Source: a virus. From it: DNA of 64,000 nt. Location of the stretch: positions 27,992-91,991 of IMG/VR virus record IMGVR_UViG_3300050821_002260; one strand, written 5' to 3'. The position numbers and the translations under genes are program-made. The notes beneath the pieces were generated by a model. That model did not search any database and was not told the DNA's origin. It was given only the letters and a program-made list of their open reading frames with translations. This document shows positions 20,351 through 41,674 of this stretch, in pieces; the stretch's first letter is position 1; each line of letters starts with the position of its first letter.

Positions 20351-20445
20351 TCACAGTGTGACGTTTATCTGCAATATCTTAGTATGTGGCACTAGAATTA
20401 GTACCAATCCTATAGGAGCAGTAACGATAAGAAGATACGTTTCAT
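20351..20445 (-). pseudogene. Possible broken signal-peptide gene
   Basis: ATG 20445 overlaps the preceding stop (TAATG) and starts MKRIFLSLLLL, then hits TAG. Shifting frame by -1 continues as IGLVLILVPHTKILQINVTL to TGA at 20351-20353. The pair looks like one short secreted or membrane peptide with a one-base lesion, in a region where every neighbour carries a signal peptide. Confidence 0.35.
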
Positions 20446-21848
20446 TAGAAAATTATCCCTTTCCCAGTAGCAGAAGCCAAAGCCGCCTTGAACGCAGAAC
20501 TAACAGAAGCGTATACACCCACTCCGGTTGTGCCATTGCTTGTATTCGTATAGGTGAACGATACCGCGCTGGTATTTGGATTATAATAAAGCGCCCTTCC
20601 ATCGTCCTCATTCAACGTAGAAGCCCCACTTCCAGCTGGACAAGCGTTGTTGTTCCCGCTGTTCGTAGCTGCACCTGCATATATCCCGGGAGATGCCCCC
20701 GTGACCGTACAAGAAAACCAAATCGCCGCGTTGAACACTAATCCATTCGACGTAGTTGGAGTGATGGATTGCGTCACCAAGCTACCGACAGTATTTTGCG
20801 TCCCGGTTGTGGTCGAATCCACGTCATGCGCGGAAGTAGCCGCTCCGGTTACGTCTACCATGACCAAGAAATTAAACCCCAGCGTATCCGTTCCACTATA
20901 GGTAGGGCTGAGGGTCAAGGTATTACTGCAAGTCGCGTTCGAGGAATAAAAAATCTGACCTATATCGGGTCCGCCCGCGTTGGTAACGCTCTGCCCGGTA
21001 GACCACGTATTCGAGGGGCTAGAGCTTAAGGCGCTTAGGGTTACGGCGGCGCTGCTCCATACACCGACTAAAAGATTGCCCGCGCACGGAACCTGCATCG
21101 TGTGCGTGGTGGTGCCGAACGCCTCGCCCTGTAAGCCAATGACACGGATTCCCGTCGAGGAAGGAGCCGTACCTGTTGATGCCGGTTTCAATGCGATGGC
21201 CGTTGATTCCCAAGTGTCCGAATCCGAGGTCGTAAAGGAGGTTGTCTGCGAGCCAGAGGAACCAGTTACTTTATACTGAGCGAATGTTCCCGATCTGTTC
21301 GCGCTGAGGACCGTTCCTCCGCTACTGGTTGCCATGCTGGTGATTGTAGGAGTTAAGGTAGTAACATCAACGGCGGCATGATAAAGATAATCTCCCGAAA
21401 CGGTAGTTGTTAACGTAACGCTACGAGTCGCAGAAGTGTTAGAAACATCTGACGTACAATCAGAGTTATAAAGCTCCACACCGCGAAAGGAAACCGTTCC
21501 CGAGCCACCAGAGGTAGTGGCCGTAATAACCTGTGAGCCAGCGGTAGCTATTCCACGGTAAGTGGCAAGAGTTTGAGCGTTGTTTGTAACGGTAGGCCCA
21601 AGGGTAAGCGTGTCACCTTTGTCGGTCTGCATGGCGCTGACCGTCATACCGGAGTCATGCTCCATGCTGATTGCTAGGCAGTTTCCCGACAATGTTTTGT
21701 TTGGAAACCAAGTCTTCGCGTTTGCCCCTGTAACTTGAGTGTTGTCTCGACCGCTGGAAAGGTACTGCACGACGGTCGGCGTCTGTGCCCAAGCGTGAGG
21801 AGCATATAGCAGGCCAACTAACAGAAATAATACAATCCACCGTTTCAT
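20445..21848 (-). CDS. Secreted beta-sandwich protein with Sec signal peptide
   Basis: 467 residues from ATG 21848, which overlaps the upstream stop (ATGA). The signal peptide is MKRWIVLFLLVGLLYAPHAW followed by AQ, predicted cleavage AWA-Q. The mature protein has two beta-sandwich domains: TVVQYLSSGRDNTQ ... STAIALKPA and a second from GIRVIGLQGEAFG to VSSAFKAAL. The domain type recurs in the fibre and adhesin genes downstream. A phage tail protein would not normally carry a Sec signal, so this may be exported to the host periplasm or surface. Confidence 0.6.
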   Translation of the reverse strand: MKRWIVLFLLVGLLYAPHAWAQTPTVVQYLSSGRDNTQVTGANAKTWFPNKTLSGNCLAISMEHDSGMTVSAMQTDKGDTLTLGPTVTNNAQTLATYRGIATAGSQVITATTSGGSGTVSFRGVELYNSDCTSDVSNTSATRSVTLTTTVSGDYLYHAAVDVTTLTPTITSMATSSGGTVLSANRSGTFAQYKVTGSSGSQTTSFTTSDSDTWESTAIALKPASTGTAPSSTGIRVIGLQGEAFGTTTHTMQVPCAGNLLVGVWSSAAVTLSALSSSPSNTWSTGQSVTNAGGPDIGQIFYSSNATCSNTLTLSPTYSGTDTLGFNFLVMVDVTGAATSAHDVDSTTTGTQNTVGSLVTQSITPTTSNGLVFNAAIWFSCTVTGASPGIYAGAATNSGNNNACPAGSGASTLNEDDGRALYYNPNTSAVSFTYTNTSNGTTGVGVYASVSSAFKAALASATGKGIIF

Positions 21849-22690
21849 TGGGCACAATCCAGTTGGAACGTGATTTGCTTAGGACCGGAAATCGTCGTTA
21901 TAAAAAATCCAAGTGTGTCGTTCGCAGAAAGCGTCGTCGATGTGAAGTCTGTTACCGTCGTCGAATCCACTTTCGTACCAGATGCCAACGAAACTCCGCT
22001 CGTAGAAATCGAATTTGAGCCAACTGTCGGAAGCGCAGTTCCACTGTTAATTCTAGCTGTCTTGATGGTCACGGTACCAGAGTCTGCCATGATGTGATAG
22101 CCAATAATAGTACACGGAAATGGAACTGTAATATAACCGACTTCACTCGTCGTCAAAGCTGAGCCGGTTGCTACGTCTCCGAATGCCCATCCGAGTGTTC
22201 TAACAACACCATGTTGGAACGCGAAATAATTGGTTCCGTCTGTATAAATCGTGGCTCCCTGACCTCCAGGGAGAGGCATACTAGCAGCCGCACTCACATA
22301 ACTTGAACCATTAAAATAACTTATGTTAGAAGTCGTTGGGGTTATCGTTTGAAGGCCCGTACTGATATTTGTAATGTTCCAAACGACCCCTGCTCCACAC
22401 GTGGACGCATTTGGCATTGTCGGCGTCTGAGCAGAAGCGTTGCTCAATTGGACCAATTTCAAACTGTCAGCACAGGTTATTGGATAGTTGGAACCAGTCT
22501 GAAGATTGATGCCAGAATTCGCTACAAAGACATTCTGCGCTTCTAGTGGCGAAGCCAGCATCGAAAGACACATCAGCAGAGCAAACAGCTTTCTTTTCAT
22601 AGTGACACTCCTATATTTAGAGTTACCAGTCTCATTTCCAGCGTTTGACCCTGTGTGGACATGATTCTGTGCCCATGTTGGAGTTGCCAT
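21845..22690 (-). CDS. Fibre/secreted protein with two alternative starts
   Basis: 281 residues from ATG 22690 (SD AAGGAGG), or 251 residues from the in-frame ATG 22600 (SD AGGAG, preceded by a promoter-like GTAACTCTAAATATAG). The short form begins with a signal peptide MKRKLFALLMCLSMLASPLE followed by AQ. The long form prefixes 30 polar residues (ATPTWAQNHVHTGSNAG) that would hide the signal. The body has FANSG-type beta strands, GGQGATIYTDGTNYFAFQHG and a C-terminal sandwich (TIIGYHIMADSGTVTIK) as in tail-fibre tip proteins. The gene may make both a virion form and an exported form. Confidence 0.55.
   Translation of the reverse strand: MATPTWAQNHVHTGSNAGNETGNSKYRSVTMKRKLFALLMCLSMLASPLEAQNVFVANSGINLQTGSNYPITCADSLKLVQLSNASAQTPTMPNASTCGAGVVWNITNISTGLQTITPTTSNISYFNGSSYVSAAASMPLPGGQGATIYTDGTNYFAFQHGVVRTLGWAFGDVATGSALTTSEVGYITVPFPCTIIGYHIMADSGTVTIKTARINSGTALPTVGSNSISTSGVSLASGTKVDSTTVTDFTSTTLSANDTLGFFITTISGPKQITFQLDCAQ
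22616..22629 (-). promoter_or_regulatory. Putative late promoter element (CTGGTAACTCTAAA)
   Basis: A variant of the recurrent motif, 16 nt before the internal ATG 22600 and inside the longer reading frame. Supports independent use of the shorter start. Confidence 0.35.
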
Positions 22691-22702
22691 GTCTTATCCT
22701 CC

Positions 22703-24658
22703 TTAATGCGCTGGATAACAATTCGAAGAGTCAAAACTCAGCAGCGTTGCCGCGCCGTTCGTTGGCCCACCCATAACACTCAGGTAGCATACAGCAGCGG
22801 GAATGTGATTGGCGTGACCCCCGACTCCTGAAATGTTCCCACTAGAAATATCCGGACCATCCGCAGGCCACGGGATAGTTGGTTGTCCAGTCACTCCCCA
22901 CCAAGCCGGTTTCACAGTTAAGAAAAATGATGATGGTAGCGTCTGACTAGAGGGAACAGTATTAGCAAAACCATCAGTCAGCACTGTCGGAATTTCAGCA
23001 TTGACAAAACGAACACCTGGACTACTCACCACATCATAGTTTCCCCAACGTAAAAGACTTGTCGTTGTGTAAGCCTCACTAGCAGGCGCATCTCCAGCGT
23101 ATCCTAGAGAATAAATCTGCACGTCATTGTTGCAGCTGGACGGACTCGGATAGGCGCACTGATACGTTGTGTGGTAGCCGGACGTTCCCAACACATTACC
23201 AACTATGTTCCAAAAACGATTATAGGTGTAAAGAAGAATCGGATTCGTGTTTTGGTTCTTTCCGCCGCTGCTCCCGCCATTAATGTCTCGTCCGCTATAG
23301 TAATTTCTGAAAACCGTGAAGAAATTAGATGTGCCATGGACGTCATCACCGATAGCACCGAAACCTTCATTGCCCTCAAATAAATTGTAAGCGTCCCCGC
23401 TACCGTGATGATAACCTGGACCGCTCTGTTGAAATCCAGTGTCACTTCCAGCTGGAGTTCCTGTGTAATAGTTGTCTATATCAAAATTGTAGTCCTGGAC
23501 TCCACCAATACAGCCCTCTTGCATGTAAGAGAACGCCATGTGTTGCGTGATGTTGTTCTCGAAAAGAACGTCTGCTCCTGCCCAACAAGAATAGACATAG
23601 TTATTAGAAGTCGAAGCAGACCCAAAACCATAGCTATCTCTTATCGTAATGTTCTTCGACTGGTAGCCATAGAACTGATATGTCCCAGAACCATTCAGCC
23701 CTTGCCCAATAAAACGAATATTCTTCACCCACACGTTATAGCAATCGATGCAGAAAATATTCGAGAAGGCTGAATTGCTTCTAGCATCTAGTGACATGCT
23801 CTCTATACCATCATTCTGAATAGGTAGGCCACTATTGCTCCACATCTGCGGAGTACGAGCGCCGGAAATATTTGGCATCCTTATTCCAGGAGAAATTCCT
23901 ATTGTCCATGGTCCAGAACCAGAGATAGAAGTGATTATCTGTGGCTCTTCTTGCGTCGAAGGACGCCAGTTACGTCCGTTGCCAGAACCACCACCGCTAC
24001 AATTGGAAGCCTGACAAACAAAAACCCCGGCTGCTGGAATTGTCGTATTGTCCAACTGATCTAAAAATATAAGACTACCGACTTGCAATCCTGCGATACT
24101 TCCTTTAGTGAATGTATTGATGGTGATACTCGTAGTCCCTACAGCGTAACCTCCTGTCCAACTAGCTAGATTGTTATAAGTCTGATCACCACCATCACCA
24201 TTATTTACGGATTGGAGACAGATATTAGCTCCACCAAATCCGGCGCAGCCGTTTGCGCCCACAGCGGAAGTGAACGTTACGAAAGTCGAATTCGCCCCAC
24301 TACCTCTTAAGGTCACGTTGCTCTTATTAGCAAAGTCAATCATCGTAGTGATAGAAAATGATCCCGATCCAAGTAACACGAAATGGTTCGCTGCACAAGA
24401 AGCTATCGCGCTGTTTATCGCTGTGGCTGTTCCAGAATATGCAGAGATTGTAGAACCACATTGCGTTCGAGTTCCAGTAGGATCTATAACTGCTCCAGCT
24501 TTAGACCAATCGATAGCGCGAGTAGAAGCGAGAATTCCAGTCCAAGGTGGTCCAGAACTCGTCACAGTTATAGAAAGATTCGCCGTAGCTGAACCCTGTC
24601 CGTATACAGGAATAAGTGAAAACAGAAATACAATCAAAGCAGACAACCATTTTTTCAT
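22703..24658 (-). CDS. Secreted right-handed beta-helix protein (pectate-lyase-like)
   Basis: 651 residues from ATG 24658 (SD TAGGAG, ATGA overlap with upstream stop). Signal peptide MKKWLSALIVFLFSLIPVYG then Q. The body shows parallel beta-helix features: FVLLGSGSFSITTMIDFANK, SNVTLRGSGANSTFVTF, followed by repeated N-x-x-I/V-x-D turns (IRDSYGFGS; DVLFENNITQH; LFEGNEGFGAIGDDVHG; FTVFRNYYSGRD). This fold is shared by polysaccharide lyases and hydrolases of phage tails. No catalytic residues could be fixed by eye. A role in degrading host surface or matrix polysaccharide is likely. Confidence 0.6.
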   Translation of the reverse strand: MKKWLSALIVFLFSLIPVYGQGSATANLSITVTSSGPPWTGILASTRAIDWSKAGAVIDPTGTRTQCGSTISAYSGTATAINSAIASCAANHFVLLGSGSFSITTMIDFANKSNVTLRGSGANSTFVTFTSAVGANGCAGFGGANICLQSVNNGDGGDQTYNNLASWTGGYAVGTTSITINTFTKGSIAGLQVGSLIFLDQLDNTTIPAAGVFVCQASNCSGGGSGNGRNWRPSTQEEPQIITSISGSGPWTIGISPGIRMPNISGARTPQMWSNSGLPIQNDGIESMSLDARSNSAFSNIFCIDCYNVWVKNIRFIGQGLNGSGTYQFYGYQSKNITIRDSYGFGSASTSNNYVYSCWAGADVLFENNITQHMAFSYMQEGCIGGVQDYNFDIDNYYTGTPAGSDTGFQQSGPGYHHGSGDAYNLFEGNEGFGAIGDDVHGTSNFFTVFRNYYSGRDINGGSSGGKNQNTNPILLYTYNRFWNIVGNVLGTSGYHTTYQCAYPSPSSCNNDVQIYSLGYAGDAPASEAYTTTSLLRWGNYDVVSSPGVRFVNAEIPTVLTDGFANTVPSSQTLPSSFFLTVKPAWWGVTGQPTIPWPADGPDISSGNISGVGGHANHIPAAVCYLSVMGGPTNGAATLLSFDSSNCYPAH

Positions 24659-24996
24659 AGCACGACTCCTACACTGATTGTTCCCACATTCCCAAGTATA
24701 TCTATCACTTGAACTGTGAAATTAAACGTGCCTGTCGCTGACGGTGTCCCAGTGATATTTCCAGAAGTGTCCATGCCCAACCCCGTAGGTAGAGCACCAG
24801 AAATTACAGACCACATGAATGGTCCAGGTCCTCCAGAAACCGACAGCACAGAATTCAGAGAAGCACTGTATGGAGTTCCTACTGTGGCTCCTGGGAGACT
24901 CCCGATCACAGTTATGACAATTGGATAATTTCTAGCAATAGCGACTGGACTATGACTAGAGGTCGGAGGGCCATGTCTTTGGGAAGCAAATCCCAT
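24655..24996 (-). CDS. Single He_PIG (putative Ig) domain protein
   Basis: 113 residues from ATG 24996 (SD AGGAGG). A single domain covers nearly the whole protein: LPGATVGTPYSASL, GPGPFMWSVISGALPTGLGM, ITGTPSATGTFNFTVQV, the typical He_PIG pattern of G-T-P-Y-x2-L ... G-x-LP-x-GL ... GTP-x-x-x-G-x-F. No signal peptide is evident. The stop overlaps the start of the beta-helix gene, so the two are probably co-translated. Confidence 0.65.
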   Translation of the reverse strand: MGFASQRHGPPTSSHSPVAIARNYPIVITVIGSLPGATVGTPYSASLNSVLSVSGGPGPFMWSVISGALPTGLGMDTSGNITGTPSATGTFNFTVQVIDILGNVGTISVGVVL

Positions 24997-26226
24997 CTAG
25001 CCTCCTACGACATGGAGCATCGGCTTTCGGTACTGTGCTTCTAGCTGTTCGATAGCCAAATCTACAGCGTTTTCTAATCCACCGCCTGGACCATTGCGTA
25101 CCAGTTTAGCGTTTGGATAGAACGGAGACTGTCCTGACTCTAGGAATCTCCAGTCTGAATTGCTAGACAATAGAACAGTGAGCGGCTTTCCAAGCGCGTC
25201 TGCTAGACACATCGGTCCTGTCTCTACTGAAACCACGGCGTCTAGGTTGGAAATCAAAGCGGCCAACTCTTCCCAACTATTGAATTTCACGTTCTCTACT
25301 GGCTTGGGCATCACATGGTCGTGTTGCAGATTCACCCAATGAACTAGGTGGTCCGTCTTGCACACTAGACGCATCGCCTGTCCTTCTGTTAGAGAATGGA
25401 CCCTGCGTCCACCGTGCTTAGATTCGTCTCCCCGCCAGCATAAACCAACTACTGGAAGCTTGGTTCTGGCTAGGGAATATTTCGCTTTCAGCTTTGGCAG
25501 AACTGTGAATTTCTCTGGTAGTTCCGGCACGTCGGCAGGAGTCGCATTGAAATTCGCTGGTAGGGAGACTACGGTAGTCCAGTGAGATTGTGTCGCTTGA
25601 CTGCCAACTCCTATCAATCTATCTGGCCCACACCATGAGGCTCTCTCAAAGAATCCTCTCAGCTCTGGGAACGCGAAATATTTCCAAGAGATTCCCTTCT
25701 TGGTGAGTTCCGGCAACCATCGGCAAAATGTGATTCTGTCACCAATGCCGCCTTCGTCAATAACCAGCAATTCGTCTACGAGTTGTCTCCCGTTCCACGG
25801 TTTGACGTTCATGGACAAACCGACAGTTAACGCTGATTGCTCTTTAGAAGCACGGGCAGAATCGTAGATAGGCCACGTATCGTGTCTGCCTCCCCATCTG
25901 CCACTTCTCAATAAAGATTCAGAGTAGGCTAGTCGCACATATTCTTTTTCATCTGCGACCTGATAAGCTACCTTGAAGCAATCGTGTGCTTTGCCATGCT
26001 CTCCTAAATCCTTTAGAATGAATCCTAGGTTCATAGACGTGTTCGGGTCGTTAGGGTCTTTGCTGAATGCGAGTTGAGCTAGAGGCAGAGCGGCTTGCAG
26101 ATCGTTCAGAGTGAAATAGCAGATTACTAGATTGTTGAGATTTTCAACGGTAGGACGTATAGAGCAGATTTTTTCCAATTGGCGAACTGACGACTTCGCC
26201 TGTTCCACGGTCATATACAGAGACAA
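24997..26226 (-). CDS. TPR-domain glycosyltransferase (GT9-like)
   Basis: 409 residues. Residues 1-120 contain TPR helices (NLNNLVICYFTLNDLQAALP; NTSMNLGFILKDLGEHGKAH). Residues 150-400 are GT9/GT41-like: LLVIDEGGIGDRITFCRWLP, VVGLCWRGDESKHGGRRVHS, and LDAVVSVETGPMCLADALGK, the donor-binding S/T-x-x-GP loop. TPR plus a GT-B transferase recalls O-GlcNAc-transferase-like enzymes that modify proteins. Located among fibre genes, it is a candidate for glycosylating fibre or secreted proteins. TTG 26226 follows GGGGTGATG; ATG 26214 is an alternative. Confidence 0.7.
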   Translation of the reverse strand: MSLYMTVEQAKSSVRQLEKICSIRPTVENLNNLVICYFTLNDLQAALPLAQLAFSKDPNDPNTSMNLGFILKDLGEHGKAHDCFKVAYQVADEKEYVRLAYSESLLRSGRWGGRHDTWPIYDSARASKEQSALTVGLSMNVKPWNGRQLVDELLVIDEGGIGDRITFCRWLPELTKKGISWKYFAFPELRGFFERASWCGPDRLIGVGSQATQSHWTTVVSLPANFNATPADVPELPEKFTVLPKLKAKYSLARTKLPVVGLCWRGDESKHGGRRVHSLTEGQAMRLVCKTDHLVHWVNLQHDHVMPKPVENVKFNSWEELAALISNLDAVVSVETGPMCLADALGKPLTVLLSSNSDWRFLESGQSPFYPNAKLVRNGPGGGLENAVDLAIEQLEAQYRKPMLHVVGG

Positions 26227-26229
26227 GCA

Positions 26230-27443: not shown

Positions 27444-27698
27444 TCACAGCTTCTCTGGATACTGTAAAGGTACGAACCTGACATCATCAGATCCAGTCCC
27501 GTGTAGAAGTGGGGTGCCTGATGATGCGTTTGTAACAACGGTGTCCGCAGCAGCATTCACTAGTTTGCAATTTGTGAAATCATTGCCAGACACTTGGACA
27601 GCGATGCCAGATTTGACCATCGCTCTGGTCGTAACAGGATTCAATGTAGAAGAAACTACGGTAACTCCGTCGCTCTTTTTCAATGTGGCAGTTGCCAT
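27444..27698 (-). CDS. Small hypothetical virion-type protein
   Basis: 84 residues from ATG 27698 (SD AAAGGAG, TAATG overlap with the previous gene). Sequence is beta-strand and Thr/Val-rich (VTVVSSTLNPVTTRAMVKSG; CKLVNAAADTVVTNASSG). No motif recognised. Coupled to the pyrophosphatase-like multidomain gene. Confidence 0.5.
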   Translation of the reverse strand: MATATLKKSDGVTVVSSTLNPVTTRAMVKSGIAVQVSGNDFTNCKLVNAAADTVVTNASSGTPLLHGTGSDDVRFVPLQYPEKL

Positions 27699-29263
27699 TA
27701 TGCACTCCTTTTCTTCTTAAAGATAACTCGCCCGAATAGGCCGGATTTGTTTGCGTGTCTAAGTGCTTCCACTTGCTTCACTCTCCTGAGTTTCCCTTTG
27801 CTGAGAGCGTAGACAGGTATTTTCCTTTTCAGAGCATGAACTGTTTCACTGAACACCCCGGCTGTGAGACGCTTCCCTTTCGCTGGCTTGAGCACGAGGC
27901 GTTTAGATTTATCTATCTTCTCATGGAAATATCCCATGCCTAGCTCTGCGTGCTTCTTTGTCGTTGGAACGCTCACGCCTTCATTCGGGAATGCTTCTTG
28001 GATGCGGTCTATGTTCGCCTCTTCAGCGTCTGTATTGTAGTGAGACATTGGACGAGCGAAATATGTTTTCTTCGCTTCTCTGAGGAAGTTGCCCACTCTG
28101 GACTCGAAGGTCCTAGACGTTTTCATCTCTTTAGGCTTTAGAGCAGAGAGTTTATGACTTCCATTGCTATTGCTGCTCACAGCCATCCTATGACCGGCTG
28201 GCGATTGTACAATAGAATGGATAGCTTGGACTGCTCCTTCTGTACCAGTCAATCGAGAGCCAACTTCTAAAACTTTCCAGCCAAGTTCCTTTAGATGCTC
28301 CAGCGCTTCCTCATGACCACCCTTCAACTCTTCCTTTTGTTGCTCAGGAGTCCGTGGAGTAGTTGGTTGATTTTGCTGCATCTGCTGAGCGGCTTGCTTC
28401 GCTGCTCTATCTTTCTGTGCCTGAGCAATCATATTCAATTGAGGCTGAGTGCGGCTGACGACCTGCATCATGTTCATTGTGCGCGGGTCGTTTTGCAGAT
28501 TCTGCTGCATAGACTTTTGCTGATTGGTTTTGGCTGAACCGGCGTCTCTAGGATTTCTTACTCCCCACTTTTGACCCTTGACGCCATGCTCTCGCACTTC
28601 TGGATTTTCCATTATGTCTTGGTGGTGACCCAGAATCGACTTGGTCATGTCCTGGTCTGTGCCACGACCGGCCATTTGTCCAGTGGTAGCGAGATACGAT
28701 TCGTACTCTGGTTTCTCGAAAACATCTTCTGGAAGCTGAAGTGATGCGCCTGCTCGTGACGCCACTAGTTTCTTCGTCGTGTGCTTCTTTACAAAAGCAC
28801 GCTCCCTGAATTTCCACATTGGAATAGCGTCAATCCCACCGAAGAATTTGTCGTCATCATAATGTTGTTTGAAGCACCGTTTAGCAGCATCGGATGAGGC
28901 AAAACCCAACATGACCTTGTCCTCATCAAATTCTGCTCCGTCTGGCGTGTTGCAATGAACGACGTAGGCGAAAGCAGCATCTTCGTTTGGTCCCACAAAT
29001 ACATCAAGTGCGTCACCATCTACTCCTTCTGTGCCGGGGATGTATCCGTATGGCAGACGCATCTTGGTGCGCCACTCTTCGCCGTCGTCATCGACTCCCT
29101 TACGGACACTCCCCTTGCGATTCTCTATGCTGATTGGGATATTCTGGAACGTGGTCTTACCGTGGAGCTTACGATTTTCACGAAGGCGAATCATCTTCAC
29201 CTTGAAATCGTGAATCTCCTTGGGTCCCTGGAGTATCGTCCGGCCACGATCGTCTACGTACAA
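27698..29263 (-). CDS. Multidomain protein: InPase-like, HGVKGQKW motif, deoxyribosyltransferase-like
   Basis: 521 residues from TTG 29263 (SD AAGGGAAAG). Residues 30-170 match the phage inorganic-pyrophosphatase-like domain: MRLPYGYIPGTEGVDGDALD, VFVGPNEDAAFAYVV, EDKVMLGFASSDAAKRCF, FFGGIDAIPMWKFRERAF. Around residue 235 is EHGVKGQKWGVR. A helical Gln-rich linker follows. Residues 400-500 resemble nucleoside 2-deoxyribosyltransferase-like folds: TYFARPMSHYNTDAEEANID, GYFHEKIDKSKRLVL, LTAGVFSETVHALKRKIPVY. Candidate substrates are nucleotides or NAD-type dinucleotides. A RLREN motif is near the N-terminus. Possibly packaged and processed. Confidence 0.65.
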   Translation of the reverse strand: MYVDDRGRTILQGPKEIHDFKVKMIRLRENRKLHGKTTFQNIPISIENRKGSVRKGVDDDGEEWRTKMRLPYGYIPGTEGVDGDALDVFVGPNEDAAFAYVVHCNTPDGAEFDEDKVMLGFASSDAAKRCFKQHYDDDKFFGGIDAIPMWKFRERAFVKKHTTKKLVASRAGASLQLPEDVFEKPEYESYLATTGQMAGRGTDQDMTKSILGHHQDIMENPEVREHGVKGQKWGVRNPRDAGSAKTNQQKSMQQNLQNDPRTMNMMQVVSRTQPQLNMIAQAQKDRAAKQAAQQMQQNQPTTPRTPEQQKEELKGGHEEALEHLKELGWKVLEVGSRLTGTEGAVQAIHSIVQSPAGHRMAVSSNSNGSHKLSALKPKEMKTSRTFESRVGNFLREAKKTYFARPMSHYNTDAEEANIDRIQEAFPNEGVSVPTTKKHAELGMGYFHEKIDKSKRLVLKPAKGKRLTAGVFSETVHALKRKIPVYALSKGKLRRVKQVEALRHANKSGLFGRVIFKKKRSA

Positions 29264-29264: not shown

Positions 29265-29897
29265 TTAGTTCTTTCCCTTCATCTTGACTTTGATAACGGC
29301 CACGTTGGACGCCGCATCAGTGACGGTTACGGAGAATGTGAATGACCCAGATGCTGTCGGAGTACCAGACAAGACACCCGACACGCTGAGAGTTATCCCG
29401 GTTGGCAGAGCGCCTGAAGTCACAGCCCATTTGTAAGGAGCAAGACCGCCGGTCGCTACCAGAGTGGTCGAGTAGGCGGTTCCTATTGTCGCGCCGGGGA
29501 GACTGTTCGTTGTGATAGCTAGAGCAGCGTAGACGTTCATCGTGTACGCTTGCGTGATGGATACAGCCGGAGTCTCACTATCGGTCGCTTGGACAGTGAA
29601 AGAAAATGCTCCGGTAGCAGTTGGAGTGCCGGAAAAAACGCCAGTGGTGCTATTGAGCGAAATTCCCGCCGGGAGTGCTCCTGCCGAAATGCTGAATGAG
29701 TATGGCGATAATCCACCAGACGCGGCTATTGACGCCGTGTACGCTAGACCAATCATTCCGTTGGGAACGGTCGCTGTAGAAATCACGACGGTCCCGGCGG
29801 TCACATTAAGCGTAAGAGATTTCGAAACTGTATCTTGTGCCAAAGTGGGAATGGCGAACAATGACAACGCGAGAAACAGACCTAGATATTTTTTCAT
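29265..29897 (-). CDS. Secreted protein with two He_PIG domains
   Basis: 210 residues from ATG 29897 (SD AGAGGAA, TAATG overlap). Signal peptide MKKYLGLFLALSLFAIPTLA then Q. Two tandem He_PIG domains: one around GLAYTASIAASGGLSPYSFS to GVFSGTPTATGAFSF, the other around IGTAYSTTLVATGGLAPYKW to GVLSGTPTASGSFTF. Each is about 85 residues. The C-terminus KVKMKGKN is short and basic. Such domains usually act as spacers or carbohydrate-contact units in secreted proteins. Confidence 0.65.
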   Translation of the reverse strand: MKKYLGLFLALSLFAIPTLAQDTVSKSLTLNVTAGTVVISTATVPNGMIGLAYTASIAASGGLSPYSFSISAGALPAGISLNSTTGVFSGTPTATGAFSFTVQATDSETPAVSITQAYTMNVYAALAITTNSLPGATIGTAYSTTLVATGGLAPYKWAVTSGALPTGITLSVSGVLSGTPTASGSFTFSVTVTDAASNVAVIKVKMKGKN

Positions 29898-30745
29898 TAA
29901 TTCCTCTTTGCTTTCACTATTCTCAAATTGACCCCTGACGAATCTGTAATCGTTATAGAGAAAGCCGCAGAACCTGAACCGGTCGGTGTCCCACTAAGAA
30001 GTCCGGAAGGAGATAGCGTCAATCCAGGCTGGATTGTGCCGCTAGTCACGGCGAAAGTGTATGGAGGCGTTCCGCCAGCGACACCCAAAACTGTCAGCAA
30101 ATTTTGGGAATATGGAATTCCAATCGCTCCAGGTGGAAGGACACTAGTCCCGTTCAGTGTGATAACGGGTAACGGAGTCACTGTGATAGCTGCGGAAGCG
30201 GTCGTTGACGGATTGCTCTGCAACGCTGCGGTCACTGTGCAGATTCCGCCAGATGGAACAATTGATGGTGGGGTGTAGTTCCCGTTAGCGTCTACAGTCC
30301 CACAGCTTGCAGACCAGTTGACGCCGCTAGTTCCATTTGTAACCGTAGACGTCAGAGCTATCGTCGGAGATGCTTGTATGGACGCTGTAGACGGACTAAC
30401 AGATATTGATGGAGGTGGTGGAGCGCCGCCGACAGTGAGAGTCACGACGTTGGAAATTGGGACAGCTGAACCGCCAGCGCATCCGTACATCTCTGCCTGT
30501 ACAGTCGTACCATTCTGAGACACTGTGACATTGGGAATCTGGAAACTAATCGTCGAAGCGATAGCGCCATAGACTCCCTTACCATTGACCAGCCAGTAGC
30601 TACGACACGGACCGCCACTGACAGTGACAGTGAACGTGGCAGTCTGGCCGACCTGGACAGTTTGGCTGGTCGGCTGCTGAGTTATAGACTGCGACTTAGC
30701 TAGAGGTGCTAGAGCCAGTAGCAAGAATGACAGGAATCTTTTCAC
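29897..30745 (-). CDS. Secreted Ig-like / He_PIG protein
   Basis: 282 residues from GTG 30745 (SD AAGGGGA). Signal peptide VKRFLSFLLLALAPLAKS then Q. First Ig-like domain: ITQQPTSQTVQVGQTATFTV (residues about 20-105), second: ISVSPSTASIQASPTIALTS with the bacterial-Ig signature NGTSGVNWSASCGTVDANGN, third: He_PIG (PPGAIGIPYSQNL; LSGTPTGSGSAAFSI). The C-terminus IVKAKRN resembles that of the neighbour. The second domain type is characteristic of Acidobacteriota secreted proteins, in my recollection. Confidence 0.65.
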   Translation of the reverse strand: MKRFLSFLLLALAPLAKSQSITQQPTSQTVQVGQTATFTVTVSGGPCRSYWLVNGKGVYGAIASTISFQIPNVTVSQNGTTVQAEMYGCAGGSAVPISNVVTLTVGGAPPPPSISVSPSTASIQASPTIALTSTVTNGTSGVNWSASCGTVDANGNYTPPSIVPSGGICTVTAALQSNPSTTASAAITVTPLPVITLNGTSVLPPGAIGIPYSQNLLTVLGVAGGTPPYTFAVTSGTIQPGLTLSPSGLLSGTPTGSGSAAFSITITDSSGVNLRIVKAKRN

Positions 30746-30749
30746 GCAG

Positions 30750-31187
30750 TTATTTCCCCTTAGGGCGCTCACTAAGACCCTTCTCTGTAAGTATTTCCGC
30801 TACGTCGTCGATATGAAGACAATCAACCATACAAGCGTAATCGTTGGTTTGTTGAATTATCGCAATGTAGCCGTTACAGTAGTCATTTCCCGGAGTCGCA
30901 CTGTGCAAGACACCAAAAGCCGTGACCTTCCCGCCTTCTAGCTTCACAATTTTATCGCCGTTCTTTGCTTCGCGTCCGTTTCGATAATGCATCTTTGTCT
31001 CTCCTCTGATTTTGAATTGTCTAACCAATGAATCTATAAACTTGTCTCGTGCTTTGTCAGCTTCCTCTTGTGAGCGATATGGATAGAACGGCGGAGGGCC
31101 GAGCCTGCGATGGTGAACGCACTCACAGTCCCTATCAACAATCTGACCATCGCCGACCCATTGATTCCTATCATTGAGTACTCTCAT
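30750..31187 (-). CDS. Hypothetical protein with possible internal start
   Basis: 145 residues from ATG 31187, overlapping the upstream stop (ATGA). The N-terminal part has CECVHHRRLGPPPFYPYRSQ and a helix; an in-frame ATG at 30992 with SD AGAGGAGAG could start an 80-residue C-terminal product (HYRNGREAKNGDKIVKLEGG ... CLHIDDVAEIL). The C-terminal part looks like a small SH3/KOW-like barrel often found in phage accessory proteins. Function unknown. Confidence 0.5.
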   Translation of the reverse strand: MRVLNDRNQWVGDGQIVDRDCECVHHRRLGPPPFYPYRSQEEADKARDKFIDSLVRQFKIRGETKMHYRNGREAKNGDKIVKLEGGKVTAFGVLHSATPGNDYCNGYIAIIQQTNDYACMVDCLHIDDVAEILTEKGLSERPKGK

Positions 31188-31966
31188 GCTGCGATATCCA
31201 ACAAGTCTTGCTGAAAGATCGGCTGTGCGAAACCGACCGGGTTCTTAGCACCAATCCAATCCTTCGAGAACAACGTGTGCGATTCGTCACAGTATTTCAG
31301 CCAGAATGCCCACGTCATCTGTTTCAACTGTCCCCACGTGATGCAAATCGGCCCGATGTTATTGTAAGCCGGACAGAATACCGCGTGACCGCCCCACGAA
31401 TTAGGCTCCGTCGGGTCCGACTTCTTCAACATCTTGGCGAACCAGCTTCTATTGTCGAGTTCTACATCCCAGATGTCCTGCGTCTGCGCCGTGAGAGGCA
31501 GAGCTAGACCGATGTATACCCCGCCGAACAGGTAGATAGATTGCTTGACATGGAGAATATCATTTGGATTCGGGTCTGCATAGCCTAGCAATTCGTGACC
31601 GCCGAATCCGTTGTTCCTCCAGCTGTTGAGAACGGTTATCTCGTCGCCTCCTTGGTCAGTGGAGGAATCTGCCGGGTTGTAGCCGCATTCCTTTTCGTAG
31701 GCATCTAACACGACCGCGTCGGGAACAGTGATTTCTGTACCTAGATTCGCGGTCCAGATTTGGACCGCGTGACCCTTGGCTGCTTCTGTGCAGATGCCGA
31801 GAGTGTCGTTGAGCATCATCCCGAAACTTGTGATGCCCTTCGTGTAGTCCACAGTGACTGGCGGAGGAGGGAGCGCTTCGAACGCTATGTATCGCGCCAT
31901 CCTCAGCGTTCTATGGTCTACTCTGGGAGCTAGTTTGCCTAGCTTCATTGCAGCGTGACTAAGCAT
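31184..31966 (-). CDS. Papain-like fold protein (cysteine-peptidase-like)
   Basis: 260 residues from ATG 31966 (SD AAAGGAAA; an upstream in-frame extension to 32035 lacks an SD). Candidate catalytic landmarks: Cys in LNDTLGICTEAAKGHAVQIW, His in NSWGGHAVFCPAYNNIGPIC, followed by ITWGQLKQMTWAFWLKYCDE. The order Cys ... His fits a papain-type arrangement, but the third residue cannot be fixed. Possible roles are cleavage of peptidoglycan peptides (lysis or entry) or virion processing. Confidence 0.5.
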   Translation of the reverse strand: MLSHAAMKLGKLAPRVDHRTLRMARYIAFEALPPPPVTVDYTKGITSFGMMLNDTLGICTEAAKGHAVQIWTANLGTEITVPDAVVLDAYEKECGYNPADSSTDQGGDEITVLNSWRNNGFGGHELLGYADPNPNDILHVKQSIYLFGGVYIGLALPLTAQTQDIWDVELDNRSWFAKMLKKSDPTEPNSWGGHAVFCPAYNNIGPICITWGQLKQMTWAFWLKYCDESHTLFSKDWIGAKNPVGFAQPIFQQDLLDIAA

Positions 31967-32216
31967 TGTTTCCTTTCTTGGCACTCCACCAATCGGAGCA
32001 CATACTATCCGCTGGATAAGGCAGTTTTGGTCCACCGTTGTATAGGATAAAGTTTGGCTCCCGGCATGTTTTCTTGTCCGGATTCAAGTATTCACAGTTG
32101 AGGCACATTGAACCACCGCGAGGGACAGGTAAGACCGGTTTGTGATTATTGGGAAGCTTGAACTGCCCTGCTTCCCTGAAAGTGCTGAACGTGGATTCTC
32201 GGAGGCGTTTCAGCAT
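31959..32216 (-). CDS. Small four-cysteine protein (HiPIP-like or zinc)
   Basis: 85 residues from ATG 32216. Residues 1-20 contain RLREST and FREAG, the L/F-x-E motifs seen in virion proteins. Four cysteines: CLNC, then KKTCREP, then PADSMCSDWW. The spacing C-x2-C-x8-C-x18-C with a terminal C-x-x-W resembles high-potential iron-sulfur proteins, which end in G-W-C-x-x-W. Phage versions of such proteins exist in head modules. A zinc site is the alternative. Confidence 0.5.
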   Translation of the reverse strand: MLKRLRESTFSTFREAGQFKLPNNHKPVLPVPRGGSMCLNCEYLNPDKKTCREPNFILYNGGPKLPYPADSMCSDWWSAKKGNNA

Positions 32217-33282: not shown

Positions 33283-33296
33283 CTTAGAGTTACTTT
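33283..33296 (-). promoter_or_regulatory. Putative late promoter element (AAAGTAACTCTAAG)
   Basis: Copy of the recurrent motif, 14 nt before ATG 33269; also overlaps the 3' end of the 33295 gene. Confidence 0.5.
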
Positions 33297-33969
33297 AGCT
33301 GACCACGAATTTTCCGTAACCGTTTTGCATTACGATTTCATTGTAGACAGCTACCAGCACGTCGTGCAGATTTGCGTTCTTGGGATTGGCGACGCGCACA
33401 TTTTGGCTTTGACCGAGTGCGACACGCGCTCTCGGGAATTCAGCAGACGCTGGCACCGGAGGCGGAGCGGCAGGCAGCAGCGACTGAATAGCCAAAAGGA
33501 TAGTCAAGAACACTGTCGCAGAGCCTGTGATTGTCGCTGCCAGTCCCGGATTGTTGATGTGAGCGGCAGCAAGTAATGCTTGGATGTTGCTGACGATAGA
33601 TTGCACGCCAGCGATAACTTTCCCAAGCAGAGTCGTCTTCGTTGATGCTGAAGCAGCATTGTAAGTGTTGATGATAGCTTGCAATGCCGTCAGACCAGCA
33701 CTGATATCGGTACCGATAGCTGAAATCTCTGCTCCTACTGCGGCGCTGAGGAGTCCTCCGCCCAGAGCAGTCGTTATGATGCCTGCGATATTGGCTGCTA
33801 TCTGGATTAGAGTCGGCAGGTCGTTTTCGAGAGTTGTCAGCCATTGCGCTGAAGTGCAACCCTCTTCTAGCAAAGCGACACCACTGATGCCAGAACCGAT
33901 AGCAGCGGTAACGAGCGCTTTCTTCCCGCTACTTAGAAACCATTCTCTGCGGTCCATTACTGCTTCCAT
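33295..33969 (-). CDS. Hydrophobic protein with Tat-like N-terminus
   Basis: 224 residues from ATG 33969 (SD AAGGAGG). The N-terminus MDRREWFLSSGKKALVTAAI resembles a twin-arginine signal (R-R-x-W-F-L) followed by a hydrophobic stretch and a cysteine in LLEEGCTSAQW. The centre is Ala/Ile/Leu/Gly-rich (IAANIAGIITTALGGGLLSA; VFLTILLAIQSLLPAAPPP), suggesting membrane insertion or hydrophobic helices. The C-terminus is polar. Such proteins occur in Acidobacteriota genomes; the phage role is unknown. Confidence 0.5.
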   Translation of the reverse strand: MEAVMDRREWFLSSGKKALVTAAIGSGISGVALLEEGCTSAQWLTTLENDLPTLIQIAANIAGIITTALGGGLLSAAVGAEISAIGTDISAGLTALQAIINTYNAASASTKTTLLGKVIAGVQSIVSNIQALLAAAHINNPGLAATITGSATVFLTILLAIQSLLPAAPPPVPASAEFPRARVALGQSQNVRVANPKNANLHDVLVAVYNEIVMQNGYGKFVVS

Positions 33970-35160: not shown

Positions 35161-36234
35161 TTAGATTAGTTTATCTGTTGTCCAGATTTCTTCTCGAACT
35201 AAAAACCCGTTCAAGTCTAGATAACCCACGTGCAAACTATCTCCACTGAAATTCAACATGACACAGCCGTTGTAGCCTATCTTGAGCCCTTCGCTGTTTG
35301 GATACTCGCGAGCGTCTGTGAAAGAGCAGAAGCATTTTGAGTTGTCAGGCAGCTTCAGAGGAACGGGCATCCCTCCATTGCCTATCAAGCGACCATAGGC
35401 AGTGACGCCGTTGTAGGTGTATCTATTATAGATTCCCATCCGGTGCTCGTGACCCCAGAACCACAGGAACGGCTTCTTGATAAAACTAGACAATTGCTTC
35501 GCTGGTTCGCTGTACCATTTCTCGAATGAGGACCACGGCTGATAGTGGCTGAGTACAACGATTTCGCGCTGGTCGTCTTCCAACTTCAGATTCGCCAGCC
35601 ATTTCATGTTCTCGTCAGGTATCTTACAGCTTGGCTTGAATGGGCCGAGGTCCAGTCCGGTGGAATTATATGCTGTGTCAATACCTATGATTCTCCAATG
35701 GCTATTCTGAATACAGAAGTAGCTTGCTTTCTGGTCCAACTCTGGCAGCAGGACATCGTAGTAGGAATTCCCATTCGTATACATCTCGTGATTGCCGCAC
35801 AGAGCGAAAGTTCCCTTAGAGCCTCTGGGCCACGCGACCGGTTCGTAGTCGCTGACTTTGAAACCAAGAAAGTTTTCGTCGACTTCCTGTTCGCTTCCTG
35901 TGTAGTAGATGTCGCCTAAGTGGATAGTGTAGTCTGGATTGGCAGCTTTGATTTGGAGCGCTACTTTCTCAGCTTCGTTTGTTCCCGTTCCCCAATCTGC
36001 CGCCATGCCTATCTTCGTGTAGTCGGGCATCGTGTAGACGCCGGTTTCTGGCGGAGCGTAGGACAGGAACTTGTGTCTGGGCTTCAGCCAGTAGGCGCCG
36101 ACATGCGTCAGCCACGCGGCGATATTTGATGGACTGTACGCGCCCAGACTGTTGTAAGCCGCAGACGCTGTACGGAAATGAGACTGAACGGCGACGTGGG
36201 ACAGGTTAGACAAGTCTCCGAGAGTTTTTCTCAT
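35161..36234 (-). CDS. Calcineurin-like metallophosphoesterase
   Basis: 357 residues from ATG 36234, sharing one base with the upstream stop. The full metal-binding set is present: AADWG (DxG variant of DxH), HLGDIYYTG (GDxxY), CGNHEMY (GNHE), VVLSHYQPW and FWGHEHRMGIY (GHxH). This arrangement matches purple-acid-phosphatase / PhoD-like hydrolases. Contrast with 14000-14701, which lost these residues. Target unknown; could hydrolyse nucleotides or host phosphoesters. Confidence 0.75.
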   Translation of the reverse strand: MRKTLGDLSNLSHVAVQSHFRTASAAYNSLGAYSPSNIAAWLTHVGAYWLKPRHKFLSYAPPETGVYTMPDYTKIGMAADWGTGTNEAEKVALQIKAANPDYTIHLGDIYYTGSEQEVDENFLGFKVSDYEPVAWPRGSKGTFALCGNHEMYTNGNSYYDVLLPELDQKASYFCIQNSHWRIIGIDTAYNSTGLDLGPFKPSCKIPDENMKWLANLKLEDDQREIVVLSHYQPWSSFEKWYSEPAKQLSSFIKKPFLWFWGHEHRMGIYNRYTYNGVTAYGRLIGNGGMPVPLKLPDNSKCFCSFTDAREYPNSEGLKIGYNGCVMLNFSGDSLHVGYLDLNGFLVREEIWTTDKLI

Positions 36235-36458
36235 CAATGCCTCAAGTCTGAAATTTTGTAGGTTATGTAAAAACAGATGGCACAGAACACCAGAAAATAC
36301 AGCAGCATGACCAGGATTTCTTTGTTGCCAATTGGCTTCAAGCTATCTCCAAAGTTATGCTGGAGACGCGGACTTTTTACACCACACGCCTCCAGCGATG
36401 AGACTACCTGTTTTGAGACCTCAGCGGAACCGATTCCTTTCCGTGAAAGTTGTCGCAC
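36234..36458 (-). CDS. Small membrane-anchored protein (C-terminal helix)
   Basis: 74 residues from GTG 36458 (weak SD). The C-terminal 25 residues are hydrophobic (ILVMLLYFLVFCAICFYITY) with a short charged end, i.e. a tail-anchored single-pass protein. The N-terminus is polar with KQVVSSLEACGVKSP. The start is uncertain. Could be a spanin-like or holin-like component, but nothing proves it. Confidence 0.4.
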   Translation of the reverse strand: MRQLSRKGIGSAEVSKQVVSSLEACGVKSPRLQHNFGDSLKPIGNKEILVMLLYFLVFCAICFYITYKISDLRH

Positions 36459-39241: not shown

Positions 39242-39453
39242 AATCCCTTTAGCTTCCGCGCTATCACTTCTTCCCTCTCTGCTTGTGGCAAACTTTGCAG
39301 CCATTTCTCCCTCTTCAGATCCAGCATCGCTAGGAGAAGCTCATTCTGATCTGCTAACTGTGCGGCGATTTCTCTGAGGAACACGTTTCGAATCCCATCC
39401 AAGCTGATATTTCCGGTCGTAGCACTCATATCTCTAATTTGCTTCGGTGTCAT
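39238..39453 (-). CDS. Small helical hypothetical protein
   Basis: 71 residues from ATG 39453 (SD AAGGGAGA); the longer open frame to 39558 lacks an SD and overlaps the upstream gene. Contains LDGIRNVFLREIAAQLADQN and MLDLKREKWLQSLPQAEREE helices. No motif. Confidence 0.5.
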   Translation of the reverse strand: MTPKQIRDMSATTGNISLDGIRNVFLREIAAQLADQNELLLAMLDLKREKWLQSLPQAEREEVIARKLKGL

Positions 39454-39871: not shown

Positions 39872-39993
39872 AGATGCCTTTCTTGAAGGTTGTAAACTTG
39901 GTTTTTCAATGCGCCATCATGCCATTAGTGAGCATCGCAGCCAATCTGCCGCATCCAAAATCTCAGCATGTGGGGTGGTAGCCAAACGCCTAC

Positions 39994-40419
39994 TCAACGC
40001 GGCAAAACGCGTCTTTCACCAATAGGCCAGACGTACTTCATGTTTTTCGGTACCGACGCTGGAAACCAGATGCGATAGTGTGATTCGTTTCTGTTGAGCA
40101 AATTAGACTGATGCGACCTGTGGAAACTGCTGTCACCGAGCCACGGAGGGAATACCACTGGGAAGCCGATTTGCAGATAGTCCATGGTATTCGGCTTTCC
40201 TCTGTGTTTCCAGGTGCTGACCATGACATTGTGATACCATGCCAGCGCGTTAGTGAATCCGTTCCACATTTTGCACGCTGGCTCGATATTCCAGCCCTTC
40301 TTGTGTTCCTTGAGCATGGTATAGATTGCGAGCGCTTCTTGACGCTGCTTGCCTAGACGCTCGTCATCTAGACAGCATGCAGATAGGCCGAAGTCTGGGA
40401 ACGGCAAAAATGTGATCAT
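39994..40419 (-). CDS. MSMEG_6728-like protein (pyrimidine-dimer glycosylase-type family)
   Basis: 141 residues from ATG 40419 (SD AGGAG). Follows the family pattern well: MITFLPFPDFGLSACCLDDE, RLGKQRQEALAIYTMLKEHK, KMWNGFTNALAWYHNVMVST, PPWLGDSSFHRSHQSNLLNR and YVWPIGE at the C-terminus. This family is annotated as related to pyrimidine dimer DNA glycosylases in actinobacteria and phages. A DNA-damage or base-recognition role fits, but activity is unproven. Confidence 0.65.
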   Translation of the reverse strand: MITFLPFPDFGLSACCLDDERLGKQRQEALAIYTMLKEHKKGWNIEPACKMWNGFTNALAWYHNVMVSTWKHRGKPNTMDYLQIGFPVVFPPWLGDSSFHRSHQSNLLNRNESHYRIWFPASVPKNMKYVWPIGERRVLPR

Positions 40420-40420
40420 G

Positions 40421-40669
40421 TCAGTCTCCTAGGATAGCTTCTTTGTACTCGGGCTGTTGGATTAGGAATCTCATAAGGCGAATTCGGCCTTCCGTCCCGG
40501 TCTTGTTGAAGATGTTGTAGATGTGGTTCTTGACCGTGTTTTCAGTAATAGACAGTTCTTGGGCTATAGCTTTGTTCGTAAAACCTTTGCAAGCTAGAAT
40601 CGCTATCCTCTTCTCAGCTTTAGAAAGCTGTCTATTGTCTGTGCTGCCATTGCTCTTTGGACCAGTCAT
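40421..40669 (-). CDS. LuxR-type helix-turn-helix regulator
   Basis: 82 residues from ATG 40669 (SD AGAGGAG, ATGA overlap). A lone GerE/LuxR HTH domain without receiver or ligand domain: LSKAEKRIAILACKGFTNKA, IAQELSITENTVKNHIYNIF, NKTGTEGRIRLMRFLIQQ. The T-E-N-T-V-K-N-H recognition helix is canonical. A standalone HTH may repress or activate phage or host promoters. Confidence 0.75.
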   Translation of the reverse strand: MTGPKSNGSTDNRQLSKAEKRIAILACKGFTNKAIAQELSITENTVKNHIYNIFNKTGTEGRIRLMRFLIQQPEYKEAILGD

Positions 40670-40902
40670 AGTTCTCCTCTGCGTCTGCCGCGTTCTTCTG
40701 GTCGCTTCTCCAGTATGATTTTGCGAATATTGCCGTCTCGACACCTCACTTGCCAGCGGTCTAGCTTCTCGTTGTAGATAAACTTGTGGTCGCATTTGTA
40801 GCAGCTGCGACATCGCGTGCACTCGTATTCGAATATGTGATTGCAAGGGAGTTCGTGTGACGGAGGCAGACCTGTAGTGACTTGATATTGTTGGTAGAAC
40901 AT
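40666..40902 (-). CDS. Cysteine-rich small protein
   Basis: 78 residues from ATG 40902. Contains CTRCRSCYKCDHKF (three cysteines with C-x2-C-x2-C), preceded by LPCNHIFEYE. The C-terminus is very basic (EKRPEERGRRRGEL). Possible zinc-dependent nucleic-acid contact. Coupled to the LuxR-type gene. Confidence 0.5.
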   Translation of the reverse strand: MFYQQYQVTTGLPPSHELPCNHIFEYECTRCRSCYKCDHKFIYNEKLDRWQVRCRDGNIRKIILEKRPEERGRRRGEL

Positions 40903-40903
40903 T

Positions 40904-41338
40904 TTAGTGTTTTACGATTACGACTTGGGACAAATCTGGCTTGGGGTCTTCCGAAGGTTTGTTAAGTCCGCCGTGCCACTGATAGGCTCCCCATCCAATG
41001 ATACCTAGATTGCTTCCATAGCTGATACTGTTCCCTGTCTTGCCGCTGATTTCATACCCGACGAGCTGGGCTACGCCATCGAGCGCCATCGTTGTTCCGT
41101 ATTCGCCCCAAGCTGCTCCGTAGTGTCCTTGACAGTTTTCGACATTCGGAATGCGACAACGATGCAAGCCTTCCGCATAGACCGCTCCAGCAATAGCTGT
41201 GGCTATGATTCGTGTCCGTATCGGATGGTCGCGGAATTGCCGTTCCAACCAATTCGGTTTAGGTTGTGAGGAAGATTGTGCTGCGAGCAGAACAGGGAAC
41301 GCAAACAAAAGAAACAGGGATGCGATTATTCGACGCAT
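40904..41338 (-). CDS. Secreted small protein with Sec signal peptide
   Basis: 144 residues from ATG 41338 (SD AAGGAG). Signal peptide MRRIIASLFLLFAFPVLLA then AQ. The mature part has LERQFRDHPIRTRIIATAIA, GLHRCRIPNVENCQGHYGAA and GIIGWGAYQWHGGLN. Two Cys in HRCRIPNVENC could form a disulphide in the periplasm. Similar small proteins occur in Acidobacteriota. Function unknown. Confidence 0.55.
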   Translation of the reverse strand: MRRIIASLFLLFAFPVLLAAQSSSQPKPNWLERQFRDHPIRTRIIATAIAGAVYAEGLHRCRIPNVENCQGHYGAAWGEYGTTMALDGVAQLVGYEISGKTGNSISYGSNLGIIGWGAYQWHGGLNKPSEDPKPDLSQVVIVKH

Positions 41339-41350
41339 GATTTCTCCTTA

Positions 41351-41674
41351 CTATCTGTAAGGCACTATTGCGATGCCAGCCGGAGCTAGATATAGACCAG
41401 CCGGGAGAGGATTGTTGCCATTCGAGAGAGGACAATTGCATATCACGGAAACGTTGTCACTAGCTTGCGGCCACAACCCGTTTGGAGCTATGACATTGCA
41501 AGTGTATTGTGTGTACGATGGATAGGTAGACATGACAGCTGAAGAACAGTTGGAATATGTCACAGTTCCAGTGCTCGCTGGCGCTACGGTCAGAGTTAGC
41601 GTTACGGAAACTTGGTTCTGTGCATTAGCTCTGGATGCAAACAGGAGCAGCAATAGCAATGTCAAGTGTCTCAT
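41351..41674 (-). CDS. Secreted small protein with Sec signal peptide
   Basis: 107 residues from ATG 41674 (ATGA overlap). Signal peptide MRHLTLLLLLLFASRANA then Q. The mature part (VSVTLTLTVAPASTGTVTYS; YTCNVIAPNGLWPQAS; ICNCPLSNGNNPLPAGLY) is a small beta domain with four cysteines, probably disulphide-bonded. Paired with the preceding secreted protein. Confidence 0.55.
   Translation of the reverse strand: MRHLTLLLLLLFASRANAQNQVSVTLTLTVAPASTGTVTYSNCSSAVMSTYPSYTQYTCNVIAPNGLWPQASDNVSVICNCPLSNGNNPLPAGLYLAPAGIAIVPYR

Follow-up and report, generated by a model that had tools for sequence, protein, structure and literature searches.

The window analyzed here is a 64,000-nucleotide stretch of viral DNA, bases 27992–91991 of a 91,991-base IMG/VR virus record (IMGVR_UViG_3300050821_002260), in which almost all genes lie on the minus strand. 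Seven of its genes, spread over positions 20445–41674, begin with canonical Sec signal peptides (SPs), and by these N-terminal features their products are predicted to be exported proteins of the Sec (signal peptidase I) type. One of them, the gene at 22703, encodes a right-handed beta-helix protein with a lyase- or depolymerase-like fold. We lean, with moderate confidence, towards a set that is Sec-exported late in infection and acts on host exopolysaccharide (EPS), in which the beta-helix would be active and the other members would bind. The SPs, the fold of the beta-helix, the conservation of SPs in the families concerned, and the occurrence of chromosomal relatives in EPS clusters together favor a set that is secreted, expressed late, and directed at the matrix over the other interpretations. 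The source is probably a soil phage of Acidobacteriota; the host phylum is suggested by the beta-helix relatives and by cultured Tunturi phages that share the SP habit, not by a direct link.

Signal peptides of the seven genes

The seven genes are listed with the start codon at the higher coordinate and the candidate cleavage site at the end of each line.

20445–21848 (minus): SP and 445-residue all-beta protein (low-confidence model); its ATG at 21848 overlaps the previous stop as ATGA; HAWA/Q
21845–22600 (minus): SP and 230-residue mature protein, with the SP at the N-terminus only from the start at 22600; LEA/Q
22703–24658 (minus): SP and right-handed beta-helix, putative secreted polysaccharide depolymerase/lyase of 651 residues (SP, family, and model); start overlaps the stop of a He_PIG gene (ATGA); VYG/Q
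29265–29897 (minus): SP and two He_PIG domains (E 2.5e-29); start overlaps the previous stop (TAATG); TLA/Q
29897–30772 (minus): SP and immunoglobulin (Ig)-like/He_PIG-like protein, GTG start at 30745 or 30772 (phrog_3995 tail protein, 1.7e-9; Ig, 5.8e-6, under the cut-off); AKS/Q
40904–41338 (minus): SP and small phage-specific protein with two conserved cysteines (homologs in two other phage types); LAA/Q
41351–41674 (minus): SP and 89-residue mature protein with four cysteines (SP rules); ANA/Q

At the N-terminus of each, rule-based scoring found a basic n-region, then an h-region without charged residues and an A-x-A-like site with Q as the next residue, and cleavage directly before Q is possible in all seven. 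For the 22703 product, the scorer favored a later site, SATA/N; VYG/Q is our reading by eye. An earlier, sequence-only reading of the window had named the same seven leaders, and on this point it was borne out. On rule-based scoring of the window proteins, in place of the SignalP run that this reading had suggested, a strict rule called 8 of the 67 genes of at least 100 residues, namely the seven and one false call. The latter, at 5274–6062, sits inside an interrupted capsid gene and was rejected. With the same rule, 5 of 274 genes were called in six control phages, including lambda Lom, Rz, and RexB; the window is enriched (7/67 versus 5/274; Fisher p 0.003) relative to controls that are few and include none of Acidobacteriota (lambda, B40-8, Mx8, and parts of N4, crAss001, and DAC16). 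Of 15,400 internal 60-residue segments of window open reading frames (ORFs), 80 scored as an SP. Outside the window, the record has a further 28 kb, on whose coding strand the scorer found no SP.

The fold labels of the sequence-only reading fared unevenly: He_PIG was recovered in two copies for 29265 and the beta-helix of 22703 appeared in its model, while the Ig label of 29897 found weak support and no fold was shown for 20445, 21845, 40904, or 41351. Both the beta-helix family and the 40904 family have conserved SPs. Two other phage types, G004 (L011 has the identical stretch) and G007, encode proteins that are 58–69% identical to 40904; in both, the homolog is located downstream of genes for terminase and a portal-like protein, and the SP is present in all three types. 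No match to 40904 was found in 396 Acidobacteriota genomes (a search without a positive control), and tblastn of the phages collection returned no match for either 40904 or the 22703 beta-helix. The 29265 protein has a homolog in G005 that is 56% identical and also carries an SP.

The beta-helix protein and its relatives

The model of the 22703 protein has a predicted local distance difference test (pLDDT) score of 89.8 and a predicted template modeling (pTM) score of 0.92; the structure alignment, A3, comprised 43 of 64 listed loci and the window protein. Foldseek matched it to the Klebsiella K1 capsule lyase 7w1c at 8e-11, and VIA aligned the two with Z 22.8 and a root-mean-square deviation of 4.6 over 381 residues. 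VIA also matched it to the alginate epimerase/lyase 8jaz (Z 23.1), the LKA1 tailspike (Z 21.3), and the Vibrio cholerae matrix lyase RbmB (9ozl; Z 20.0), in a list from which the absence of a family does not exclude that family. The fold matches range over lyases, epimerases, and hydrolases, polygalacturonase among them, and 22703 can be regarded as a putative polysaccharide depolymerase/lyase. Tailspike capsule depolymerases such as the Klebsiella K1 lyase and Pseudomonas LKA1 gp49 are likewise phage-encoded right-handed beta-helices with a probable polysaccharide target. However, they are attached to the virion, whereas 22703 has an SP in place of the N-terminal attachment domain, and identity is only about 11–13%. 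In the alignment, at most about 20 residues separate the SP from the conserved W-S/T-G with which the helix domain begins. RbmB is similar in being a secreted-type beta-helix, and its gene lies in an EPS cluster, as do those of chromosomal relatives of 22703. Identity to RbmB is 12%, and the phage copies lie among tail genes and not in an EPS cluster.

A search with an alignment of four phage members as the query found 40 family loci in viral contigs (IMG/VR) and 38 in genome contigs, mostly Acidobacteriota, with SPs in 36 of the viral and 32 of the genome loci. The four viral loci without an SP call are cut by the contig end (L089), frame-broken (L093), partial (L106), or have a hydrophobic start without basic residues (L082). 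Q stands at +1 in 27 of the 36 SP-bearing viral loci. The 22703 protein itself is 51% identical to a G010 protein over the helix domain (E 1.3e-170). Wzx, Wzy, or asparagine-synthase EPS markers were found at 19/38 genome loci versus 0/40 viral loci; the EPS-cluster calls were confirmed by Pfam on ten neighbors of three loci, nine of which gave matches. The 22703 protein shares homology and an SP with the Acidobacteriota EPS-cluster family, but the viral loci do not share its EPS-cluster location. Of the 297 Acidobacteriota genomes that were sampled, 10 had the family.

A tree was made from 63 rows that were acceptable in length and reading frame, with two duplicates removed. Its phage rows require 11 label changes, of which at least nine are forced by supported branches, which argues that beta-helix genes moved repeatedly between phages and cells. 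Among bacteria, EPS-cluster Acidobacteriota are the closest neighbors of the window clade in this tree (support 99). Homologous sets in related phages, which the sequence-only reading had proposed to look for, are present in other phages, where large SP proteins surround the beta-helix. By a loose rule, which makes this comparison weak, 28 of 37 beta-helix loci have at least one SP gene nearby (mean 1.49) versus 13 of 29 control windows (mean 0.66); L079, L081, and L095 were omitted from this count as duplicates or near-duplicates.

Cysteine content provides an independent mark of export. When proteins with a high content of T, S, G, and N are compared, 77 with an SP average 2.07% cysteine in their mature parts versus 0.98% in 41 without an SP (p 1e-8); proteins of less than 200 residues, those with less than 36% T+S+G+N, those with SP scores of 11–14, and loci L079, L081, and L095 were left out. 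The mature window proteins contain 6, 4, 14, 0, 4, 2, and 4 cysteines, in a tally in which some proteins counted as lacking an SP have one below threshold.

A proposed secreted set acting on the matrix

In the proposed sequence of events, the phage would make a set of carbohydrate-acting and carbohydrate-binding proteins among its late structural genes, and the host Sec machinery would export them. Disulfides would form in the periplasm, and the proteins would reach the envelope or the outside; lysis may release them across the outer membrane. The beta-helix may then cut or modify the host's own EPS and loosen the matrix, so that progeny could disperse and escape trapping on slime and debris, while the Ig/He_PIG and fiber-tip-like members may bind polysaccharide or the cell surface. 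Action before lysis, which the sequence-only reading had given as an example, is suggested by operon position only. Of the exported polysaccharide-degrading or adhesin set that it had envisaged, much is retained here: a set predicted from its SPs to be exported, a candidate polysaccharide-acting member by fold, conserved SPs, and relatives in EPS clusters. Its contrast with tail proteins that are not exported did not survive, as discussed below.

Several observations weigh against a secreted, matrix-acting set. The SP calls come from a heuristic rule-based scorer and not from SignalP. A well-modeled fold of catalytic type is found in just one of the seven members, and a fold by itself is no proof of activity; neither 22703 nor its relatives gave a Pfam match of note, and sequence matches to polygalacturonase and pectinesterase were at E 0.004 or worse. 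Even cysteine counts occur in 65 of 77 SP proteins versus 29 of 41 without an SP (Fisher p 0.095), so parity alone gives no separation, and the difference in cysteine content could reflect family make-up. Finally, no terminase relatives were found in the 396 Acidobacteriota genomes searched, and the host is itself inferred.

Tail-fiber-type proteins with signal peptides in relatives

The alternative that survives best, while still somewhat unlikely in our estimation, is that the SP proteins are virion parts: fibers, spikes, or decorations that are cleaved and disulfide-bonded in the periplasm and dock on virions at or after lysis. Both readings start from the same export signals and differ in destination, a free state or a later joining of the virion. 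One case comes from the podovirus-like record G408, in which terminase, head-tail adaptor, major head, tail, and endolysin families are encoded. Its protein at 6766–8922, at the tail-fiber position, has an SP followed directly by a podovirus tail-fiber N-terminal adaptor domain. Of its six tblastn matches, five begin at query residue 30, where the mature protein starts; in all four of the six records that were inspected, this position aligns to residue 2 of the gene. Profile comparison of the adaptor by hhalign gave 98.7% over residues 2–119, while a direct Pfam scan of the adaptor fragment gave no match, and the single tblastn E-values are weak (0.004 to 0.06). The adaptor of Burkholderia phage BcepC6B gp18, a podovirus tail fiber, is homologous to the G408 SP proteins and aligns from residue 2, but unlike them it has neither an SP nor cysteines; this comparison concerns relatives and not the window genes. 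Across the first 130 residues, there are three cysteines in the SP versions versus none in four cytoplasmic homologs. A second G408 protein, at 11593–17352, has the same arrangement, and no fiber without an SP was recognized in G408 or G410 (partly by eye). The proof from the adaptor comes from one phage, G408, because tblastn of two other mature N-termini gave no match. Pfam and PHROGs searches of the large SP proteins of relatives returned essentially nothing.

Cultured phages show a similar trait. Tunturi_1 has SPs on gp12, gp13, gp14 (tail spike), gp16, and gp17 (virion structural protein), with the lowest score of the five, 14.2, on gp13. The Tunturi_2 counterparts also have SPs, and there gp13 is annotated as a tail fiber and gp14 as a pectin lyase. 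No tail-gene SP was found among the tail genes of Tunturi_4 or in the first 50 kb of Tunturi_3, and the trait is therefore patchy. The sequence-only reading had set the exported proteins apart on the ground that tail proteins are normally not exported; with SPs on tail-fiber-type proteins in G408, Tunturi_1, and Tunturi_2, that contrast fails, and export leaves room for a later place in the virion. For the window phage itself, a virion destination is opposed by its large tail proteins, which have no SP, and by its beta-helix, which has no adaptor between the SP and the helix. Also against it, SP proteins in L088 and L075, other phages of the set, are paired with a fiber-like protein that lacks one.

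A wider idea, which we offer as possible but tentative, is that some Acidobacteriota phages make secretory fibers and spikes. These would carry the SP exactly before the normal fiber N-terminus, be exported and disulfide-bonded in the periplasm, and be joined at lysis to virions assembled in the cytoplasm. The same machinery would release free depolymerases, and the window set would be its free-acting arm.

Other explanations

Receptor masking or superinfection exclusion, in which tip-like proteins, once exported, would cover the host cell or free polysaccharide and block adsorption of later phages or progeny, is improbable. The C-terminal domain of 21845 is common to a tail-fiber-like L077 protein without an SP (E 1.3e-4) as well as to SP proteins of other phages, the set includes Ig-like binding domains, and the 40904 homologs lie among head and packaging genes. 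However, nothing specific speaks for masking, the late-operon position points to late action, and the beta-helix looks enzymatic. We consider it highly improbable that these are accessory or metabolic genes of host origin, retained because they feed or protect a cell during infection or lysogeny. The family is common to host chromosomes, and the forced label changes between phage and bacterial rows would fit. However, the neighborhood is one of late structural genes, terminase was absent from the Acidobacteriota genomes, and no Phage_integrase match was found in the record, which makes a lysogenic benefit less likely. That the N-termini are non-functional SPs, as chance hydrophobic leaders or fusion relics, can hardly be credited: there are marks of recombination around the SPs (the long form of 21845 and a mini-ORF at 20410–20445), but the SPs are conserved over divergent families, including all three types of the 40904 family, and the Q at +1 in viral loci and the cysteine pattern also argue for function.

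Gene neighborhood and other features of the window

The following features accompany the seven genes.

24655–24996 (minus): He_PIG Ig-like protein without an SP, translationally coupled to the beta-helix gene (Pfam E 2.4e-11)
22601–22690 (minus): 30-codon in-frame 5' extension of 21845, starting MATPTWAQNHVHTGSNAGNETGN..., with its own strong Shine–Dalgarno sequence; remnant or alternative start
20410–20445 (minus): 12-codon mini-ORF, MKRIFLSLLLL-stop, directly after the 20445 gene; by sequence it looks like a remnant of another SP gene
16421–19954 (minus): 1177-residue tail protein in the same operon, without an SP and with one cysteine (phrog_553 minor tail protein, 1.8e-8)
33295–33957 or 33295–33969 (minus): possible eighth exported protein, outside the list of the sequence-only reading, with a twin-arginine (Tat) or lipoprotein-like N-terminus (homologs in L085 and L077 have lipobox-like N-termini)

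In the main group, the order of transcription is a TPR/glycosyltransferase-like gene (24997–26226), the He_PIG gene without an SP, the SP beta-helix 22703, and then 21845, 20445, 19958, and 16421. Overlapping stop and start codons join 22703, 20445, and 29265 to their upstream neighbors. The relative G001, with a terminase 63% identical to that of the window phage, has the same order: TPR/glycosyltransferase, He_PIG, an SP beta-helix with its own leader, two beta-rich genes without an SP, and a tail protein. The He_PIG/beta-helix pair is thus found there too, the He_PIG homolog (G001 1221–1547) being 48% identical. The two phages are collinear, although identity between their beta-helices is just 34%.

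Two start codons, 22690 and 22600, are in frame in the 21845 ORF. The extension between them resembles the N-terminus of a G005 protein without an SP, which is itself the homolog of the 20445 protein and has this N-terminus instead of an SP. The mature part of 21845 has a close SP-bearing homolog in L078. In genes related to 21845 and 20445, the SP thus replaces or follows a different N-terminus, and the long form of 21845 and the mini-ORF are marks of shuffling around leaders. The 20445 model is poor (pLDDT 50, from three sequences), too poor for a structure search. Comparison of its family with a tail N-terminal domain gave no pairwise BLAST match and, with profiles, a probability of 28% (E 6e-4), which is a lead only.

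Other observations concern further genes of the window. The major capsid gene (Mu gpT-like, 5274–7215, minus) is split into ORFs 6751–7215 and 5274–6062, and is a single 359-residue ORF in G001; the split surrounds a NUMOD3/HNH ORF (6059–6727) and a group I intron match (6019–6276; Rfam E 3.9e-5, with 28.9 bits falling short of the gathering score, 50). The portal protein (41855–45853, minus) has 1332 residues versus 883 in G001, with an insert resembling an intein that contains a homing endonuclease (HNH endonuclease match, residues 414–471). An inorganic-pyrophosphatase-like domain is encoded at 27698–29263 (minus; PF18823, E 1.2e-38); PHROGs also places this domain in minor head and DarB-like proteins. 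Glycosyltransferase family 9-like genes lie among the structural genes at 24997–26226 and 104–1306 (minus), the latter below the Pfam cut-off, and both are present in G001.

Some genes are shared with G004. A metallophosphoesterase (35161–36237, minus) is 63% identical and a phrog_19005 protein (31184–32035, minus) 32% identical to G004 proteins, and no terminase or portal match was found in that comparison, which suggests that accessory genes travel between these phages. At 63532–63936 (minus), 76 residues are 100% identical to ORF 70871–71104 of G004, which is otherwise different; both lie near record ends, and an assembly artifact or a shared mobile piece is possible. G004 also encodes an 802-residue SP protein (L008 10438–12846) with HPRIYWTSSRLTAAQ soon after the leader, which by eye resembles the N-termini of heparinases or lyases; it gave no Pfam match.

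Relation to known systems and significance

Phage depolymerases have generally been studied as parts of the virion. Among phage genes with Sec-type SPs, lambda Lom and the T4 antiholin RI (PMC8385771) are single small envelope or lysis proteins, while in the window several large proteins rich in beta structure form a set next to tail genes. The main text of the Tunturi phage paper (PMC11924767) uses the term "signal peptide" 0 times. Among open-licence PMC papers, we recognized none on SP-bearing tail fibers or secreted phage depolymerase sets, which does not imply absence from print. Phage proteins that are exported singly have precedents, as do depolymerases on virions; for a conserved, exported, large beta-rich set beside tail genes, or SPs exactly before fiber adaptors, we found no precedent in these papers.

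What emerges is a depolymerase-like protein that is apparently Sec-exported by phages and apparently exchanged repeatedly with host EPS clusters. As Acidobacteriota are abundant in soil, this may have a bearing on the turnover of the soil matrix. If it is true that fibers are exported in some of these phages, this would change where the tailed virion is built and would give a use for fiber disulfides, with tailed-phage assembly split over two cell compartments. Tunturi_1 is in culture and carries five such genes, which makes both ideas directly testable.

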